A stretch of DNA of 42,420 nucleotides from Planctomycetota bacterium (GTDB lineage: Bacteria > Planctomycetota > GCA-002687715). Positions 3,735-12,671 of the stretch are shown piece by piece. Made by a program: the position numbers and the translations under genes. The notes under the pieces were generated by a model. It was given only the letters and a program-made list of their open reading frames with translations, was not told the origin of the DNA and made no database searches. The number at the start of each line of letters is the position of its first letter. Within the stretch, counting starts at the first letter, position 1. The stretch is from the NCBI GenBank assembly GCA_002683135.1, contig NYSS01000122.1, forward strand, positions 1-42,420. Direction: 5' to 3'.

Positions 3735-6203
3735 ATGCGTTTCCTGGCCCTGATCGTCCTCCTCGGGATCGTCACAGTGACGTCCGCTCAGGACGCGTCC
3801 CGGGATGCGCTCGGCCGATTCATCGCCACCCACCGGAAAGCCCCCGGGACGTACGGTCCCGTGGACCAACCCTGGGCCGACGCCACGTGGACGTGGCGGG
3901 CCCTTCGTTGCGCCGACCTGGTGGGCAAAGAACCCGGGAAACTCCACGGGGACCTTCGCGCGGCCATCCGCGCGCTCCCCGCGGGCGCGTCGTGGAGCCG
4001 GCGCGCGACCCGCGCGCGCCTCCTACGCCTGGTCGGAATCGACCCCGGCCCACCGCCGAACGAACCTCCGTTCCTGTCAGCGACCTCGTGGGTCGGTTCG
4101 CCACCGCTGTCCGAGCTCGAGGCGCTGGTGGAGATGCAGCGCCTCGGGGGTATGACGCCCGTTCGCTCCGTGTTGGAGCAAGTCCTCAATCTCTGGCGCG
4201 CGCGCGACGGCGGGTGGCGATGGCCGGCGACGCTGAAGGAGACCTTCGCCCACGTGAAAGCCGGCACGGACTTCACGAAGCTCCCGACGCCGCCCGAGGC
4301 GCCGTCCACGGCGGGCGCCATCGCCTCGGCGGTGCGCTGTCACCTGCATGCGGGAATCGAGATCCGCGACCCGAACCGCGCCGTCCTTCGCCTGCACGCG
4401 CTACGGAGGGTCAACGGCGGCTACCGACAGGGGACGCCCGGACACGACGTCACGGGGTTGTGGGCGACGTACGACGCGCTGCGGGCGTTACGCGACCTCG
4501 GCACCCTGCCCATGAACTCTGCGCTCACCGCGTCGTGGGTCGCCGGGCACCGCCACCGTTCCGGCGGCTTCGCGCACACACCGGAAGAGCCGGCGACCCT
4601 CGAGGCGACGTGGCTGGCCCTCGAGTGTCTGAACATGCTCGGTCACGGGCTCCCGAAGATGCCCGCCCATCCCCTGGAAGGACGCTGGCCAGACGCGGAT
4701 GACCCGGGCGGATTGCGGCTGTTTCAGGCCGTCATTCAGATGGGACCTGACCCCGCCACGTCCGTCGCCCTCGCCCATCGGATCGGCGCTGATCTGCTGC
4801 TGATCAAGACGCTGCAGAACACGGAACCGGCGCTCGCCGCACGCGCGCAGGCGGTCGCTCGAGGATTCGCTCGCCCCCTGGCCATCGGTTGCGCGCGCGA
4901 AGAGCACCGCCGCGCCTGGGGTGTGGAAGGCCTCGGGTACGCGACCCACTGCTCCGACGTCGTGTTCGGTATCGACCACGATCTCGCGGACAGAGGATGG
5001 CACGTGGGCTTCGGCGCGCTCGTCGACGCCTGGAGCAAGGACCGATCGTCCGGCGCCCTCGCGTTCTCAGCCAGCCACCTGCATCGCGAGCTCCTGGCGC
5101 CCGCGTACGAACACAGCGCGCGGCGCGGAGGCTACGACGCGCTCATGGCGGGCTGGGCGTTCGCCCCGGGCGGGGATGTGGTCCGCGAGAACCCGTGGCT
5201 GGAGCGCTGGATCGCCCGACTACCCGTCGTCGGCAATCACGACGCGCACGCCGATCCTTTCCACTGGCTGCACCAGGGGCTGCGGACGCGGACCCTGTTC
5301 TTCGCCAGGTCCGCAAACGTGGCCGCCTTTCGAGACGCCGTACACAAGGGGCGGGTCGTCGCCGTCACCCATGGAGACGACGGACTCACCGCATGGGGAC
5401 ACCCTCACTGGACCGCACGCGTTCGGCGCGAACGGACGACGTGGGACGTGGGACGCTCCGCTGATCCCCTCCCCGCGCCCATCGCCATCCCCCTCGACCA
5501 GGACACCCACGGGGAGATGCCGGCGCTCCGCTCTGGGCTGGGTCTCGTCGTACGCGCCGCGGCTCGCCTGGGGGATGACGCCCTGCCCGCGGAGGTCCTC
5601 GTTTACATCGACGGAAGCAAAGACCCGTCGCCCCTGCAGCTCGCACCACCGCGACATGCCGGTCCGCCGGTCCTGTGGCTCCCGCTCCCCCACCTGAAGC
5701 CCGGAGACCACGAAGTGCGCATCGAAGCCTACGGGCGGACAACCACCCAGCGACTGCGGTGGGGAGAGCCTGTGCGCGCCGTGACCGCTGCTCCCGTCGT
5801 GACCACGCCCGCACCTCCGCGAGAACTCGGGTTCAGTTCGATCGAAGAAATCCCCTTCGTGCGCCACACGTCTCTCACTCCGAACGACTTCCAAGGATCG
5901 GTCGAGATCACCTGCGGCCGCGCCGACGTGATCATCGGCTCCGGCCCTGGGGGCCGCATCCGCGTCGACATCAGCGGTGGACGGGAATTGGAGTGGTTGC
6001 GGCTCCACGTGGACGGAGACGACCAGCCGCTGTCGCTCACATCCCTCGACGGTGGCGAGCGGACGATCCTCTTGCCGATCCCGAAACAGACCGCCGCGCG
6101 AACGGTCCACCGCATCACCATCCGCACCAGCCTCGATGGCTGGGTCCAGCGCCCCTCCACCAGCGACCTGAAGTTGCGCAGCGTCTCGTGGGAGGTCAGG
6201 TGA
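3735..6203 (+). CDS. Secreted protein: alpha/alpha-toroid-like half plus PHP-like half
   Basis: An 822-residue exported protein (signal peptide ~1-18, ending TSAQD). Residues ~20-330 resemble prenyltransferase/squalene-cyclase-type toroid repeats: recurrent DGGW, NGGY and SGGF turns between helices (for example ARDGGWRW, VNGGYRQG, RSGGFAHTP). Residues ~400-560 carry a segment like the end of PHP phosphoesterases: VVGNHDAHADPFHW followed by RTRTLFF and a helix ending GRVVAV. The last ~150 residues are beta-rich and unrecognised. No PHP metal site can be fully traced, so activity is uncertain. A TAGGGT box lies 7 nt before the ATG, partly inside the previous stop. The gene overlaps the next by 4 bp (GTGA), so the products are likely made together. 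Confidence 0.55.
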   Translation: MRFLALIVLLGIVTVTSAQDASRDALGRFIATHRKAPGTYGPVDQPWADATWTWRALRCADLVGKEPGKLHGDLRAAIRALPAGASWSRRATRARLLRLVGIDPGPPPNEPPFLSATSWVGSPPLSELEALVEMQRLGGMTPVRSVLEQVLNLWRARDGGWRWPATLKETFAHVKAGTDFTKLPTPPEAPSTAGAIASAVRCHLHAGIEIRDPNRAVLRLHALRRVNGGYRQGTPGHDVTGLWATYDALRALRDLGTLPMNSALTASWVAGHRHRSGGFAHTPEEPATLEATWLALECLNMLGHGLPKMPAHPLEGRWPDADDPGGLRLFQAVIQMGPDPATSVALAHRIGADLLLIKTLQNTEPALAARAQAVARGFARPLAIGCAREEHRRAWGVEGLGYATHCSDVVFGIDHDLADRGWHVGFGALVDAWSKDRSSGALAFSASHLHRELLAPAYEHSARRGGYDALMAGWAFAPGGDVVRENPWLERWIARLPVVGNHDAHADPFHWLHQGLRTRTLFFARSANVAAFRDAVHKGRVVAVTHGDDGLTAWGHPHWTARVRRERTTWDVGRSADPLPAPIAIPLDQDTHGEMPALRSGLGLVVRAAARLGDDALPAEVLVYIDGSKDPSPLQLAPPRHAGPPVLWLPLPHLKPGDHEVRIEAYGRTTTQRLRWGEPVRAVTAAPVVTTPAPPRELGFSSIEEIPFVRHTSLTPNDFQGSVEITCGRADVIIGSGPGGRIRVDISGGRELEWLRLHVDGDDQPLSLTSLDGGERTILLPIPKQTAARTVHRITIRTSLDGWVQRPSTSDLKLRSVSWEVR

Positions 6204-9200
6204 AGGCGCCGATGACCTGGGTCGTCGCCGGCGCCCTCGGAGGCGTCTTTTGTGGCGTCGTCCAAGCGTGCGCCCTGGGCAACGCGGTGGGCTCCGTCAC
6301 CGGTGCCCTGACGATCGTCGTTGGGCGCCTCGCAACGGTCGGCGCGGCGCTCGGACTCACCGCCTGGTTCCTCGACGTACTCGCCCGGCGCCTGGTGAAG
6401 AAGCCCCGCAACGCACGAGTTGTTCTGCTGGCACTCCTAAGCGGTGCCGTCGCCGTGATGATGGCGGGAGGCACCCATGGCCGCGACGGTGGCCCGTGGG
6501 GCGCGTTCGGGTTCCTGGCGATCGGGGCCGCCGGCGTCACCTACGCCATCGGGCTCGTCGCGCCCCGGCGTCGGCCGAACCGTTGGCCACTTGTCGCGCT
6601 GCTCGGTTGCTTCGTGTCCGTAGCGCTGCTCGTCTTCGATCCGGAAGGGCTGCGCGGCACCTACAAGAGCCTCGACCTGCTGCTGCTGGGGTTGGGACTC
6701 GGCGCCGCGGCGGCGGGCCTGCGGGTGGCCCTGCACGGGAAGGGCCTTGTGGTAGGCCTGTCCGTCGCCATCCTGGCCGTCGCGGTTCCGCGGTTCCTCG
6801 ACGAGAGCTCCGCCGACCTCTCGACCCTGGCCACCAGGTCGGCGCGGGTGGACGTGGTGGATCGCGCGCTGGTCGCATCAGGCCTCTGGCCAGCACGTCG
6901 CCTCGACCAGAGGATTACGGACGTCGATCCCGCCGCGCTTCTACAACCACCACGACCGCGCAACGACGTTCGCGCCGCGTTCGCCGAGCTACGGAAGTCG
7001 GGCGAACCCCTGAACGTGCTCTGGGTCACCATCGACGCCCTGCGATCCGACGCAACCGGACTCGATGGGGACACCGCGTCCTCGTTGACGCCCAATCTGG
7101 ACGACCTGGCGCGCTCCGGGTTCGCCTTCCCCGACGCGTGGAGCCAGGCCCCCCAGACCACCGGGTCCATGGAGTCGTTCCTCACCGGACGCTATCCGTC
7201 CCGCACCCCGGTCGCGTCTGGATGGCGCACCGGCAAGGTCACGTTCGAAGCCCCGTCCATCGTCGAGCTCGCACGCGAAGCTGGCTTTGAAACCGCGTGG
7301 TTCACGGGGCTGCGCAAGGACACCCTCGCCGCCCCGATATGGGAGCGCCTCAAGCGTGGGTTCACGACGGTCAACGAGGAGAAGACCGCCGCCCCGGACG
7401 CGCGTCGCACCGTGACGCAAGCAATCGAGTGGTTGCGGGCTGATCGGGCGCGGTTCTTCGCGCTGGTTCACCTCTTCGACCCGCACGCACCCTACGTGTC
7501 CTGGGAAGGCAAGACGGACGCCACACCGCGTGAGCGCTGGGAGAGCGAGGTGCGCCACGCCGACGCCGCGCTGGGCGAGTTGCTCGGTGCTCTCGAACGC
7601 GAAGGGCTCGCCGGACACACGATCGTGATCGCTCACGCCGACCACGGCGAGGCGTTCAACGAGCACGGCCGCTACTACCACGGAACGTCCTTCTTTCAGA
7701 CACAGATCCACGTACCGCTGGTCATCCGGGTGCCCGGCCTCGAGGGGGCGGCGCTGCGCGGCCCGGCGTCCAACATCGACATCGCGCCGACGCTCGTCGA
7801 CCTCCTCGGGGCTGCCCCCGAGGCCGGTCACCAGGGACATTCGCTCCTCGCGCGGTTGCTCGATCCAGAGCTTTCCTGGCCGAAGCTGGCCCTCGCCGAG
7901 ACCCTGGTCGTCGACCCGCAGATCCCCTGGGGAGAGGATCGCATCCGGGCGATCACCGACGGCAGATGGAAGCTCATCGAATACCCGGACGGTCCTGCGC
8001 GTCTGCTGTACGACCTCCACGCGGACCCGGGTGAGAAAAAGAACCTGGCCGCGACTCACCCCGAAGAGGTGCGGCGTCTGCGCGGATGGATCAAGTCGCT
8101 CGACATGCGCCTGGGGTCGGAAGGCGCCTCCAAGACCTCGCCCGCCACGACAGCGGACGAGTTGATGCGCTTGCTGACGAACCCGGAGCCGCACGCCGGA
8201 CCCGCCGCCTTCCGCGCTCTCGGTCAGGAGCCGTCGTGCCTCGCGGGGATCGAGGACGCCCTCGCTTCGTACACGCCCGGTCTCCAGCACACGGTGATGA
8301 CGCTCATCGACGAGTTCCTCGCCGCTGACCTCGACGGCCCGGGACGAGACGTACCGCTGGGGGCCGCGCCGTCGCCCGTTCGATTCCGCTTGCTCGAGCG
8401 TCTGGGCCGCTCGCCCCGGTTCTGGGATACACCCATGCCTGCAACACCGGACAACCTGGTGGATGCAGAGCGGCACGCGCTCCAGGTCGCGCTGGCGGCC
8501 CGCGGCGACGCGACCGCACTCCGCCACCTCAAGTCGATCGAGCCTGCACCCCCCAAGGCGTGGGAGGCCCTGCTCCCGGCGCTGGCTCGCGCGGGCGACC
8601 CGGACGCGTACGGCCTCGCGCTTCAACTCGGTGGGCCGCCCCACGACCTGCTGCTGCGCATCCTGCGCGGGCTGACGGCGAGCCGACAGGAGAGCTTCAT
8701 CGCGTACGTCGTGGATCGATGGCCGCATCCCGAACGCCAGGTCCGAGTGCGTGTCCTGCACCGCATCGTCGATATCGCCCTCGGTCTCGACGGTGAGACG
8801 TCAGCTGCCGCCCTGATCGCCCTGCACGGGAACGCACAGCCTGCTGATCAGGCGCGCATCACCCGGCGACTCGCCGAGCTGGACCCCAGCTGGACTCCCC
8901 AACGCGTGCGCGAGACGTCGGCAGCCTTGACCCGGGCGCGCTTCGAAGAGACAGCGGGCGCGGCCCCAACGTCCGACGACGTCGTGATCGTCGGCATGGC
9001 GGGCGTCGCGGAGAGGCCCTTCGACCGGGTCCTGGGGCCTCCCCGTTTCCGACTGCGCAACGTGGGTACGAAGACGGTCGTGCTCGGGCGCGGCGGACTC
9101 CATCACCTCCAGCTGACCTGGAGGAACGGAACCGAGCGGGTTCCGGCCGCACGCGTCGTGCTTCCGCGCACGGAGCTGGAGCCGGGTGCGGAACGCAGCG

Positions 9201-9634
9201 TGGTCGCACTCCTCAGGTACCCCAGACAAGCCGGCCGATGGCGCCTCACCCCGGTCGCCGCCGACGTGACATACGTGGTCCCCCAGGGATCGAGCTGGCG
9301 CGGGCCCGAGATCGCCCGCCACGGGACCGCACGCCTCCCCTTGCGAGCGCTGGAGACGAGCACCCTGCTCGAGGTCCCCGACGGCGGCGACATGCTCTCC
9401 ATCCCCGGCGTCCCAGCGGACACGGATGTCCTCGTCAGCGTCGCTTGGGACCTGGACGCGGAAGCAGACGCGCGCGTGATCTCGGCAGACGGCTCGGAGT
9501 CCCCGATGAAGCCGGTGGGCGGCGGTCAGTGGCGCGGCCTCGTCAGGACCGCAGCCAACGGGACCCTGGGCATCCGTGTCAACGGCGGCCCGCGACTCGT
9601 ACACGTGGCCGAAATAACCGTCACCAACCAGTAG
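6200..9634 (+). CDS. Membrane-anchored sulfatase-like (alkaline phosphatase superfamily) protein with C-terminal HEAT-like region
   Basis: A protein of 1144 residues from a GTG that overlaps the previous stop (GTGA) with GGAGG 4 nt upstream; an ATG at 6212 is an alternative. Residues ~1-200 contain about six hydrophobic segments. Residues ~270-600 are a sulfatase/phosphoglycerol-transferase domain: LNVLWVTIDALRSD with metal-binding D279, the nucleophile region QAPQTTGSMESFLTGRYP, and HADHGEAFNEHG with D481 and H482. The CxPxR formylglycine motif is absent and Thr320/Thr321 occupy the nucleophile region, as in phosphoethanolamine or LtaS-type transferases. Residues ~640-920 look like helical HEAT-type repeats, and the last ~220 residues are beta-rich. 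It likely modifies an envelope polymer or lipid on the outer face of the membrane. The specific reaction is inference. Confidence 0.7.
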   Translation: MKAPMTWVVAGALGGVFCGVVQACALGNAVGSVTGALTIVVGRLATVGAALGLTAWFLDVLARRLVKKPRNARVVLLALLSGAVAVMMAGGTHGRDGGPWGAFGFLAIGAAGVTYAIGLVAPRRRPNRWPLVALLGCFVSVALLVFDPEGLRGTYKSLDLLLLGLGLGAAAAGLRVALHGKGLVVGLSVAILAVAVPRFLDESSADLSTLATRSARVDVVDRALVASGLWPARRLDQRITDVDPAALLQPPRPRNDVRAAFAELRKSGEPLNVLWVTIDALRSDATGLDGDTASSLTPNLDDLARSGFAFPDAWSQAPQTTGSMESFLTGRYPSRTPVASGWRTGKVTFEAPSIVELAREAGFETAWFTGLRKDTLAAPIWERLKRGFTTVNEEKTAAPDARRTVTQAIEWLRADRARFFALVHLFDPHAPYVSWEGKTDATPRERWESEVRHADAALGELLGALEREGLAGHTIVIAHADHGEAFNEHGRYYHGTSFFQTQIHVPLVIRVPGLEGAALRGPASNIDIAPTLVDLLGAAPEAGHQGHSLLARLLDPELSWPKLALAETLVVDPQIPWGEDRIRAITDGRWKLIEYPDGPARLLYDLHADPGEKKNLAATHPEEVRRLRGWIKSLDMRLGSEGASKTSPATTADELMRLLTNPEPHAGPAAFRALGQEPSCLAGIEDALASYTPGLQHTVMTLIDEFLAADLDGPGRDVPLGAAPSPVRFRLLERLGRSPRFWDTPMPATPDNLVDAERHALQVALAARGDATALRHLKSIEPAPPKAWEALLPALARAGDPDAYGLALQLGGPPHDLLLRILRGLTASRQESFIAYVVDRWPHPERQVRVRVLHRIVDIALGLDGETSAAALIALHGNAQPADQARITRRLAELDPSWTPQRVRETSAALTRARFEETAGAAPTSDDVVIVGMAGVAERPFDRVLGPPRFRLRNVGTKTVVLGRGGLHHLQLTWRNGTERVPAARVVLPRTELEPGAERSVVALLRYPRQAGRWRLTPVAADVTYVVPQGSSWRGPEIARHGTARLPLRALETSTLLEVPDGGDMLSIPGVPADTDVLVSVAWDLDAEADARVISADGSESPMKPVGGGQWRGLVRTAANGTLGIRVNGGPRLVHVAEITVTNQ

Positions 9635-9659: not shown

Positions 9660-10823
9660 ATGCTCGCCACCCTGGCCCTCGCCCTCGCCCTGACCGCCGC
9701 CTCGCCCGATCCGCCGCCCATCGGGGAGCGAGAATTCGAGGCGCTTCACGGCAGGCTCTTCTCGAAGACCGTGGAGACCTGGGAGAAGATTCCGTGGTCC
9801 ACCGACCTGCTGCGCGCGCGACGGCGCTCCGCGCGGGAGGGGAAGCCCCTGTTCCTCTGGTCCATGAACGGGCACCCACTGGGTTGCGTCTGAAACAACG
9901 GCGTGCTGGACCGGGCGTCCAGCTTCCACGACGCGGAGACCGCCAGGATCCTGACGGAGGATTACGTCCCGGTGGCGCTCGACGTCTTCTACGAGGAACG
10001 TCGCGAGGACACGGGGGGCGAGTTCTACCGCAAGATCGTCAAGCAACGAGAGAACCTGCAGCCGGGCCGCACGACCCAGGGCTTCTACATCGCGACCCCT
10101 GACGGCGATCTGATCAACGGATGGAACAACCGGAATCCTCAGCGGCTCAAACACCGGCTAAAGCTGGCGCTGGTCGGATACGAGGCAGGAAAAACAGAGT
10201 TCTCCCCGGCGACGAAAACAGACCCCACCTATGAGCGGTCGCTCCCGCAAGGAGCCTTGGTCGTCGATGTGCGAGCGCTGATCGTCGACGCTGCCTGGCA
10301 AGGAGCGGGCTCGCGGTGGGACAAGATCCGACGCGAGGCGATGGGTCGCGACCACCTCTGGATCACCGACGCCGAGCGCCAGGAGTTGATCGCCGGGCGG
10401 TGGCCGCCATCCCTGACCCGGCGCATGGCCAGATTCCACCTGATCGACAACACGCGCGGCGAGGCGCCCATGTGGCGCAGCCGCGACCTGCGTGAGGCCT
10501 CCCTGACCTTCGAGTCTGGGATCCTCGCCGGGCGTATCCGACTGGCGACCAATACGAATCCGCCCTTCCATCCCGACGCCGCCGTGGACCGGTTCTACGA
10601 CGCCGCCGTGCGTGGGGTCGTGACGATCAAGGACGACGCGATCGTGCGGCTCGACGTGGTCGTGCGCGGGAGCTTCTTCGGCGAGGGGCGCTGGACCCCG
10701 GGGTCGCCCAAGAAACCGTTCACCTTCGCGGTCGCTTTCGGTCTCGCGAATCCGGCTCTCGCCGCGTCGAAGGTGCCTCCTCAGGCCTCGCGTAGCCTGC
10801 GCAGCTATCTTGAGGCCCGCTGA
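9660..10823 (+). CDS. Thioredoxin-fold selenoprotein candidate (in-frame UGA as Sec78, CxU motif)
   Basis: One continuous 387-residue reading frame is interrupted only by TGA at 9891-9893; 77 codons precede it and 309 follow in the same frame. Residues 1-14 form a signal peptide (MLATLALALALTAA). Around the UGA the protein reads KPLFLWSMNGHPLGCV-U-NNGVLDRASSF: a thioredoxin-like beta strand, then a redox-type C76-V77-U78 motif at the start of a helix, then DYVPVALDVFY, the usual next strand. A SECIS-like hairpin follows at the standard distance (see 9905-9923). The ~200-residue C-terminal domain is unrecognised; it contains RLDVVVRGSFFGEG. The frame ends with tandem in-frame TGA TGA. A likely role is an extracytoplasmic thiol/selenol redox protein. 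Alternatives are a nonsense mutation or an assembly error, which would not explain the hairpin. No selenium-insertion genes lie in the window. Confidence 0.8.
9905..9923 (+). promoter_or_regulatory. Bacterial SECIS-like hairpin
   Basis: A perfect 7-bp stem, gctggac (9905-9911) with gtccagc (9917-9923), closes a 5-nt loop cgggc that has G in its second position. It begins 11 nt after the UGA, the same spacing as the minimal E. coli fdhF SECIS upper stem-loop, which is the binding target of SelB. The hairpin lies within coding sequence, as bacterial SECIS elements do. No bulged U is evident in the upper stem. Confidence 0.7.
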
Positions 10824-11013: not shown

Positions 11014-11041
11014 TTTTGCCCGCAACGAGGCGCGGTATGAT
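11014..11041 (+). promoter_or_regulatory. Candidate sigma-70 promoter of the sugar dehydrogenase
   Basis: TATGAT at 11036-11041 is a good -10 box. TTTTGC at 11014-11019, 16 nt upstream within a T-rich run, is a partial -35. The start codon is about 65 nt downstream and has its own GAGGAAG ribosome-binding site. Confidence 0.4.
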
Positions 11042-11105
11042 CCAGGGTGTATCCCATCCCCCCGCCCCTCAACGCCGGTGTCCGTCCAGCGAGGAAGCCC
11101 GGATC

Positions 11106-12671
11106 ATGACCAGAATTCTGTTTGTCGTGGCGCTGCTCTGCGCCTTCGCAGCGCCTGTCGTCAACGGTCAGTCCATGACCAAGCAGTTGATAGCGTCAGG
11201 GCTGAGTCGCCCGGTGCTCGCCATCTCCCCCGACGGCGACATGGAGCGTCTGTTCATTGTCGAGCAGGGCAACTCGTCCAGTCGCATCGCGCGCATCCGC
11301 ATCGTCAAGAACGGGAGCATGCTGTCGACGCCGTTCTTGAACATCGACAGCCTGGTCATCAACTCGGGCAACGAGCGCGGCCTCCTCGGCCTGGCGTTCC
11401 ACCCGAACTACATGCAGAACGGCTACTTCTTCGTCAACTACAACAACACGTCGGGCCAGACAGTGATCCGCCGATACCAGGCGAACCCACCGACCGCCGA
11501 TACGGTCAGCCTTGGCACCGGCTTCACGCTGATGACCATCAGCCAGCCGTACAGTAACCACAACGGCGGCATGATCGCCTTCGGCCCCGACGGCTACCTC
11601 TACATCGGCATGGGTGACGGCGGCAGCGGCAACGACCCCGGCAACCGAGCACAGAACCTGAACTCACTCCTCGGCAAGATGCTGCGCATCGACGTCGACA
11701 ACCCGAACCCGGGCCTCGCCTACGGGATCCCTGCCAGCAACCCGCTCGTCGGCATCACGGGACGCGACGAGATCTGGCACTGGGGCCTCCGCAACCCCTG
11801 GCGCTTTAGCTTCGACCGCCAGAACGGTGACATGTGGATCGGCGACGTGGGCCAGAACGCCCGTGAGGAGATCTCATACGCGCCCGCCGGCCTCGGCGGC
11901 CGGAACTTCGGCTGGCGATGCATGGAAGGCAACGGATGTACCGGGCTGTCCGGCTGTACCTGCAACTCCAACGCCCTGGCCGACCCCGTGCACACCTACT
12001 TCCAGGGCAGCTCAACCGGCTGGTGCGTCACCGGCGGCTACGTCTATCGGGGCTGCTCCATGCCCTGGCTCCAGGGCCAGTACTTCTTCGGCGATTACCT
12101 CACCAGCAAGATCTGGACCGGCACTCTTAACTCCAGCGGTACGGCCCTGACGGGCATCCAAGACCGCTCCTCCCAGCTCAGCAGCGGGATCAGCGGCCTG
12201 GGCAGCTTCGGCCAAGACGGCCTGGGCGAGCTCTATCTGATCGCCCGCGACGGCGGCGTCGTATACAAGATCACGTCAGCTTTCGGGATGACGCAGACGC
12301 GGAGCGGAACGCCCAGCATCGGCAACACCGTGAACTACAACCTGTTCTCTTACGGTCAGGGCGGCCTCCCCTACATCTTCGGTCTCTCGAGCAACGGCAC
12401 CTATCCGGGCATGCCGCTGCCAGACGGCCGGACCATCCCGATCAACGACGACCCGATGCTGCAGTTCGCCCTCATGAACCCGACCAACACGATCTACTCG
12501 CCGTACGGGAACCTCGCGGGATTCCTCGCGAACGCGTCCGTGCCAGTGAACATCCCGAACCTGCCCTTCCTGGTGGGTCAGGAGTTCTGGTCCGCGTTCT
12601 TGACCCTCAACACGTCGGCGCCGTCCGGTGTGCAGTCGATCTCCTGCGCGATCCAGACGACGGTTCAGTAG
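11106..12671 (+). CDS. Secreted PQQ-dependent sugar dehydrogenase (GSDH family)
   Basis: A 521-residue exported protein. The ATG is chosen because it has GAGGAAG 8 nt upstream and starts a clean signal peptide (MTRILFVVALLCAFAAPVVNG). The core is the six-bladed propeller of soluble aldose sugar dehydrogenases: RGLLGLAFHPNY, HNGGMIAFGPDGYLYIG with the likely catalytic base H152, GDGGSGNDPGNRAQN, the calcium/PQQ-site motif GLRNPWRFSFD, and GDVGQN. A cysteine-rich insertion (CMEGNGCTGLSGCTC) probably forms disulfides. The final ~120 residues lie beyond the propeller and are unrecognised. It would oxidise sugars in the periplasm and pass electrons to the respiratory chain; no PQQ biosynthesis genes are visible here. 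A strong hairpin follows the stop. Confidence 0.85.
   Translation: MTRILFVVALLCAFAAPVVNGQSMTKQLIASGLSRPVLAISPDGDMERLFIVEQGNSSSRIARIRIVKNGSMLSTPFLNIDSLVINSGNERGLLGLAFHPNYMQNGYFFVNYNNTSGQTVIRRYQANPPTADTVSLGTGFTLMTISQPYSNHNGGMIAFGPDGYLYIGMGDGGSGNDPGNRAQNLNSLLGKMLRIDVDNPNPGLAYGIPASNPLVGITGRDEIWHWGLRNPWRFSFDRQNGDMWIGDVGQNAREEISYAPAGLGGRNFGWRCMEGNGCTGLSGCTCNSNALADPVHTYFQGSSTGWCVTGGYVYRGCSMPWLQGQYFFGDYLTSKIWTGTLNSSGTALTGIQDRSSQLSSGISGLGSFGQDGLGELYLIARDGGVVYKITSAFGMTQTRSGTPSIGNTVNYNLFSYGQGGLPYIFGLSSNGTYPGMPLPDGRTIPINDDPMLQFALMNPTNTIYSPYGNLAGFLANASVPVNIPNLPFLVGQEFWSAFLTLNTSAPSGVQSISCAIQTTVQ

Follow-up and report, generated by a model that had tools for sequence, protein, structure and literature searches.

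The locus and its in-frame UGA

The window (the whole stretch of 42,420 nucleotides that was analyzed, contig NYSS01000122.1 of the Planctomycetota assembly GCA_002683135.1) carries on its forward strand a gene whose frame is interrupted only once, by a TGA at codon 78 in the motif HPLG-C76-V77-U78-NNG (Table 1). A sequence-only reading of this DNA had described one frame with a single in-frame TGA and coding sequence on both sides. That description was confirmed as written, with near-group relatives aligning on either side of the codon. Judged from these alignments, a frame from 9660 to 10823 with TGA at position 78 is confirmed as far beyond chance.

Table 1. Positions of the features at the locus and of the SelD genes of the same genome
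Feature	Position	Strand	Description
Upstream sulfatase-domain gene	6176..9634	+	Ends 25 nt before the selenoprotein start; its own gene start is uncertain
Selenoprotein gene	9660..10823	+	ATG at 9660; 387 residues with TGA as Sec; true stop TGA at 10821-10823
Signal-peptide-like N terminus	9660..9704	+	Hydrophobic, no positive charge; homologues checked by a crude hydrophobicity scan
Thioredoxin-like domain, about residues 40-172	9777..10175	+	Predicted from AlphaFold, Foldseek (3f9u, 3ira, 7tkv), and hhalign to a DUF255 protein
Cys76	9885..9887	+	Likely to act as the resolving partner, two residues ahead of Sec (-2); 80 of 102 Sec forms have Cys there
Sec codon TGA, residue 78	9891..9893	+	Takes the place of the first CxxC Cys
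SECIS-like hairpin	9905..9923	+	7-bp stem with a CGGGC loop of 5 nt (9912-9916), 18 nt downstream of the TGA; -10.9 kcal/mol
Gln140-Gly141	10077..10082	+	Invariant in the CxU class (80/80); aligns weakly with AQPFYV in 3f9u
C-terminal domain, about residues 185-385	10212..10814	+	Confident model, no PDB match
SelD genes L142 and L143	G000:C184:9005-9928 and G000:C12:6407-7327		SelA and tRNA-Sec flank the first gene

The same reading had proposed that the product is probably exported, and this proposal survives. The N terminus, MLATLALALALTAASP, resembles a signal peptide in being hydrophobic, but it has no positive charge. A crude hydrophobicity scan located a hydrophobic stretch ahead of the domain in 92 of the 98 homologues that could be scanned; three further homologues that were cut by a contig edge were left out.

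Neighboring genes offered little that is shared. No sulfatase was present among the ten neighbor genes scanned at other family loci, and a comparison of frames in 24 stretches holding a family gene revealed no conserved operon partner. Apart from the family itself and frames that overlap it, one single-linkage cluster of large proteins recurred in 6 of the 24 stretches. A single taxonomic family accounts for 4 of these 6, and in the stretches checked the cluster members did not adjoin the family gene. Domains encoded in adjacent genes varied (sulfatase, PhoD, beta-lactamase-type, GcpE, and permease), and among the neighbors scanned there was no common adjacent gene that would name a substrate. 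The family had no match on plasmids at E 0.001 and none in PHROGs at E 0.1. Elsewhere in the window, both NamZ (exo-beta-N-acetylmuramidase) domains share a single frame at 588-2780 with a serine hydrolase domain of the beta-lactamase type, and the gene downstream of the selenoprotein gene (11016-12671) has a glucose/sorbosone dehydrogenase domain.

Relatives and decoding of the UGA

With the window protein as the query, matches at E <=0.001 were found in 84 of 294 Planctomycetota genomes, spanning 55 of the 209 genera in the sample (46 of 154 among the better genomes). One or two of these matches are doubtful: that in G021 is a short piece which the profile search did not recover, and that in G179 is an ordinary DUF255 protein from a genome in which the profile finds a separate C-terminal piece of the family. 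The profile search itself matched 144 of the 294 genomes, a number that was not taken as the family count because the weak tail of the profile includes ordinary thioredoxins. A scan across all species with one genome per species, which detects close relatives only, returned four loci, three from Planctomycetota and one labeled only 'bacterium'. A restriction to planctomycetes fits the loci seen, with the profile having covered Planctomycetota genomes only.

For alignment, 97 further stretches were taken in, of which 95 served the family and 2 the Sec machinery, and G115:C18 was left out. All frames of these stretches were read with TGA as U. Among 54 aligned relatives, identity to the window protein was 31 to 48% in a near group and 18 to 27% in a wide group. 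In 139 aligned rows, some of which represent one gene twice, column 78 held TGA in 124, a gap in 8, Ser in 4, Asp in 1, and Cys in 2, and both Cys rows are ordinary DUF255 proteins with CHWC. Once duplicates, fragments with fewer than 250 aligned columns, and the two ordinary DUF255 proteins were removed and the window was included, 107 sequences remained, of which 102 had TGA at residue 78, 4 had Ser, 1 had Asp, and none had Cys. The sequence-only reading had named homologues with TGA or Cys at this position as support for Sec. Relatives without Sec do occur in the family, namely the five Ser and Asp forms. An assembly error at the TGA is ruled out because so many independent genomes carry it.

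Fifteen stretches from the weak tail of the profile contributed 17 rows at the same column (10 TGA, 1 Asp, 3 Cys, and 3 gaps). Of the Cys rows, two represent ordinary CxxC thioredoxins and the third is L182, from a sister family. TGA also stands at this column in more distant thioredoxin-like groups (L196, L179, L180, L183, L176, L177, L178, L189, L139, L187, L134, L129, L113, L095, L137, and L188), with motifs such as GHCU, SGNCU, ECU, GCWU, and GGLU, and these groups are possibly further undescribed selenoprotein families. In addition to L196, the genome of the window encodes L119, a second Sec-bearing member of the family whose Cys is at -1, and L195, which is distant and thioredoxin-like and has Cys but no TGA.

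The presence of selA, selB, selC, and selD in the same genome had been proposed as a check, and all four were found. The tRNA-Sec scored 73.8 bits, SelB is a frame of 682 residues that includes its C-terminal part, SelA and SelD adjoin on one contig, and the two SelD genes over the cut-off each contain an in-frame TGA. SelB exceeded the cut-off in 78 of the 84 family-positive genomes (judged there from listed E-values) versus 111 of the 210 other genomes (Fisher p 4e-12, not corrected for phylogeny). Six family-positive genomes had no SelB over the cut-off. Four of these, metagenome-assembled genomes of 83 to 86% completeness, have TGA forms together with a tRNA-Sec at 67.5 to 74.2 bits. The other two have Ser forms and no tRNA-Sec over the cut-off either.

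Published criteria for bacterial SECIS elements (PMC13188914, section 5) are a loop of 3 to 9 nt, a stem of 4 to 16 bp, G in the first two loop positions, a distance of 16 to 37 nt from the UGA, and an energy of at most -7.5. The hairpin that follows the TGA in the window lies within all of these limits (Table 1), with G at the second loop position, and so does that of SelD from the same genome. A hairpin within the limits was present in 60 of 117 distinct genes, compared with 12.6% expected with synonymous shuffling, and in 17 of 38 representatives compared with 3.9 expected. The remaining 57 of the 117 genes have none under the strict criteria with ungapped stems.

Raw folding energy after the TGA was considered as a SECIS signal and dropped. 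In the 48 nt after the TGA it was not clearly below that of synonymous shuffles (mean z -0.20 over 117 distinct genes), and 450 control windows gave a mean z of -0.02 (family versus control, p 0.054). Only the positional stem test stood out, for a hairpin in which nucleotides 12 to 18 after the TGA pair with nucleotides 24 to 30 around a 5-nt loop at 19 to 23. This hairpin was first noticed in the fold of the window and is also the peak of a position scan on the same genes. The 117 genes had a mean of 5.04 of the 7 pairs, versus 3.81 with synonymous shuffling (z about 11), and 21 of them reached p 0.05 alone. Sliding the stem by 1 to 3 nt gave z between -2.7 and 3.6, indicating that relatedness among the genes inflates z. 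The 38 representatives with less than 70% identity had 4.5 versus 3.58 pairs (z 5.5, 0 of 2,000 shuffles). By class, z was 4.95 for the 18 CxU representatives, 2.35 for the 11 CU representatives, and 1.62, which is not significant, for the 9 xxU representatives. In the same 38 representatives, 65.4% of cells were paired at the stem versus 39 to 44% when it was slid, and the covariation score was 0.424 versus 0.18 to 0.22 (0 of 500 shuffles). Two of the five measures, pairs with double change (339/500) and further pair types (27/500), were not clearly above shuffles. The loop G is present in 116 of the 117 genes and belongs to the codon of conserved Arg85; thus, protein conservation also explains it. 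Across relatives, the hairpin exceeds both the synonymous-codon and the slid controls, and it covaries.

These results bear on two ways in which the UGA might have nothing to do with selenium. An in-frame TGA on its own would fit insertion of another amino acid, such as Trp or Arg, through a changed genetic code or leakage. TGA terminates the window gene itself and 39 of 98 homologues, and therefore the code is not changed. The Sec machinery, the covariation of the hairpin, and the appearance of Ser or Cys in three genomes in which both SelB and tRNA-Sec are below the cut-off also speak against such insertion, which we consider exceedingly improbable. Standard annotation would split the frame, as expected if the TGA were a true stop that separates two polypeptides or marks a pseudogene. 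That explanation has next to no chance of being right and is refuted by the alignment, in which 102 of 107 sequences retain the TGA and conservation extends to either side of it. The claim that residue 78 is selenocysteine is well supported by the TGA column, the Sec machinery in the genome, and the covariation of the hairpin taken together.

Fold, active site, and proposed function

The assignment of a thioredoxin fold also holds. AlphaFold with a 55-row alignment gave a model with pLDDT 92.7 and pTM 0.91, in which a helix begins directly after Sec78. Foldseek matched this model to 3f9u (E 6e-4, the only match below 0.001), 3ira (2e-3), and 7tkv (4e-3, titled Thioredox_DsbH) over 133 to 155 columns, which are taken to be the thioredoxin part of the model. 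The C-terminal domain, modeled alone, reached pLDDT 91.2 and pTM 0.88; against the PDB it had no sequence match at E <=10 and no fold match better than E 0.07.

The CxU motif had been placed where a thioredoxin redox motif belongs. The position stands, with a refinement that comes from weak but agreeing alignments: Sec78 falls on the first Cys of CxxC both with hhalign, at a probability of 69%, and with hmmsearch, at E 0.12 and 0.79. The partner Cys would therefore lie two residues before Sec rather than three after it; the hhalign alignment, itself weak, puts Gly81 on the second Cys of CxxC. Among the 102 Sec forms, Cys is at -2 in 80, at -1 in 10, and at neither position in 12, two of which have UGAC (UxxC). 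The pattern of CxxC with a later cis-Pro is not seen in the window protein, which has U78..G81 and, opposite the Pro of AQPFYV in 3f9u, Gly141. Gly141 thus appears, from this alignment, to replace the thioredoxin cis-Pro; Gln140 was dropped as a candidate for that role since the alignment puts Gly141 there. Residues invariant in the CxU class (80/80) include Trp46, Gly71, Asn80, Arg85, Gln140, and Gly141, and Met69 (79/80) and His72 (76/80) are nearly so. Gln140 and Met69 are both lost in all five non-Sec members. Among the 22 Sec forms that are not CxU, 9 also lack Gln140 and 15 lack Met69 (13 and 7 keep them), and hence these residues mark the CxU class rather than Sec as such.

The closest known relatives by fold are DUF255/Thioredox_DsbH (PF03190; 3ira and 7tkv) and the exported thioredoxin-like protein 3f9u. 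The thioredoxin domain is alike by Foldseek and hhalign, and Sec falls on the first Cys of CHWC or CVNC. Unlike these proteins, most family members have no second CxxC Cys, their partner Cys is ahead of Sec, Gly apparently takes the place of cis-Pro, and there is an extra C-terminal domain. PF03190, the sole Pfam match listed for the window protein, has a cut-off of 27 bits; the window protein scored 12.2 bits, and a Sec-bearing relative further away scored 20.9. At E <=0.1, PF03190 matched 7 of 55 members (best 0.0081), and PF13899 (Thioredoxin_7) matched 5 of 55 (best 0.001). The VPGUxxT thioredoxin-like (seleno)protein type 2 model (NF041383) also weakly matched 5 of 55 members (best E 0.0038). 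It has a different Sec motif, the sole member examined in detail (L026) scored 15 bits against its cut-off of 275, and the window protein did not match it. Several selenoproteins share the CxU motif, according to Table 1 of PMC13188914: the thioredoxin-like selenoprotein Sec.1 (PF13192), in which CxU likewise lies in a thioredoxin-type protein, and the UshA-like (NF041198), ferredoxin-thioredoxin reductase (NF041072), and rhodanese form 3 (NF041203) proteins. No PF13192 match is listed for the window protein at E <=10, a range in which HMMER filters drop most matches above about 0.1, and NCBIfam, including NF041198, NF041072, and NF041203, gave no match at E <=10.

We consider the following the most suitable description of the gene, and give it a probability of roughly 0.8: it encodes a true, probably exported selenoprotein in which Sec78 would attack a substrate, Cys76 would resolve the intermediate, and a DsbD-type carrier may restore the reduced form. 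The decoding and the fold are well supported by computation. SelB and tRNA-Sec would read the UGA at 9891-9893 as selenocysteine under the direction of the hairpin at 9905-9923, and the UGA at 10821 would terminate translation. In the probably exported product, Sec78 would act as the attacking first Cys of CxxC, just ahead of the active-site helix, with Gly81 at the usual place of the second Cys and Cys76, two residues before Sec, as the resolving partner. A redox role for Sec78 is suggested by its position and conservation. Its selenolate may attack an oxidized extracytoplasmic substrate (a peroxide, a disulfide, or another oxidized group), perhaps held between the two domains. In the CxU majority, Cys76 would resolve the intermediate to a Cys76-Sec78 selenenylsulfide, which a DsbD-type membrane thiol carrier could re-reduce; the genome of the window encodes a DsbD_TM protein (93 bits). 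The substrate and the reductant are guesses. Overall, we infer an exported selenol reductase or peroxidase.

Glutathione peroxidases have an active-site tetrad of Sec, Gln, Asn, and Trp, with the catalytic Sec in a thioredoxin fold. One more specific possibility is that the protein is a peroxidase of this kind, with a network of Sec78, Gln140, Asn80, and Trp46 or Trp67, rather than an enzyme of general thiol exchange. Asn80, Gln140, and Trp46 are present in 80 of 80 CxU sequences, Gln140 is lost in five of five non-Sec members, and Foldseek gave weak matches to the glutathione peroxidases 6vpd and 3e0u. However, at E 0.29 and 0.51 these matches are poor, there is no Pfam match to glutathione peroxidase, the non-Sec members keep Asn80 in four of five and Trp46 in five of five, and Gln140 is absent from 9 of the 22 non-CxU Sec forms; we regard this possibility as unlikely. 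Less likely still would be a Sec78 that, instead of catalyzing redox chemistry, stores selenium or serves as a ligand for a soft metal or metalloid (e.g., Hg, Cu, or As). The variable place of the partner Cys (-2, -1, +3, or missing) and the conservation of Met69 and His72 by the motif in the CxU class would suit a ligand, and metal handlers are among the selenoproteins cataloged in Table 1 of PMC13188914. Nevertheless, Sec occupies the catalytic position of a thioredoxin fold, the window protein has no metal-domain match in Pfam or NCBIfam, the only such match among 55 members was a weak one to a cobalt-transport model (E 0.06), and no metal-resistance gene was among the scanned neighbors.

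Replacement of selenocysteine and novelty of the family

Cys homologues are usual for bacterial selenoproteins, although they are not strictly defining. Cys in place of Sec occurs in none of the 107 family members and once in the sister family. This protein, L182 (G009:C13), has Cys where its kin have Sec, is 34% identical to L129 over 247 columns, and comes from a genome with neither SelB nor tRNA-Sec over the cut-off. The Cys forms further out are ordinary thioredoxins. The three non-Sec members other than the two Ser forms in genomes below both cut-offs are in genomes that have tRNA-Sec and are Sec competent. In L115 the non-Sec copy adjoins a Sec-bearing copy, in L090 it lies 3.7 kb from one on the same strand, and L122 has no Sec-bearing copy in its stretch. 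A more distant pair, L175, consists of adjoining Asp and Sec copies. The same-strand Sec and non-Sec paralogues of L115, L175, and L090 suggest that an active subunit is paired with a dead one. In a quick tree with SH-aLRT support only, the non-Sec label needs at least three separate changes.

One tentative interpretation, to which we give slightly less than even odds, is that the family is Sec obligate. Selenium would be chemically required and Cys could not take over, so that loss of Sec decoding or the presence of a second copy in a Sec-making genome would lead to Ser or Asp, with the partner Cys free to be at -2, -1, or +3 or to be absent. Such families would be systematically missed because discovery methods lean on Cys homologues, and Planctomycetota would harbor an entire group of them. 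The strongest facts against this interpretation are the Cys form of the sister family, L182, and the distant Cys-bearing L195 in the genome of the window itself.

The sequence-only reading had not recognized the protein among classical selenoprotein families, and this assessment survives. The window protein reached no Pfam or NCBIfam cut-off, and the family is absent from the 119 selenoprotein families of a 2026 catalog, whose CxU entries are other domains (PMC13188914, Table 1). Literature searches found no paper on the family, with an earlier bare listing possible among the planctomycete selenoprotein candidates in the S9 Table of PMC4807772. The deep-Sep filter requires Cys or known Sec homologues, and the family may have been missed for that reason.

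The original proposal is thus confirmed and extended to a two-domain family that is common in Planctomycetota, with Sec in a thioredoxin-like active site where it is hardly ever swapped for sulfur. The family points to a blind spot, in that searches for Cys/TGA pairs and the deep-Sep filter would probably pass it over. Because Sec is almost never replaced by Cys, the capability of selenium versus sulfur is testable within one protein.
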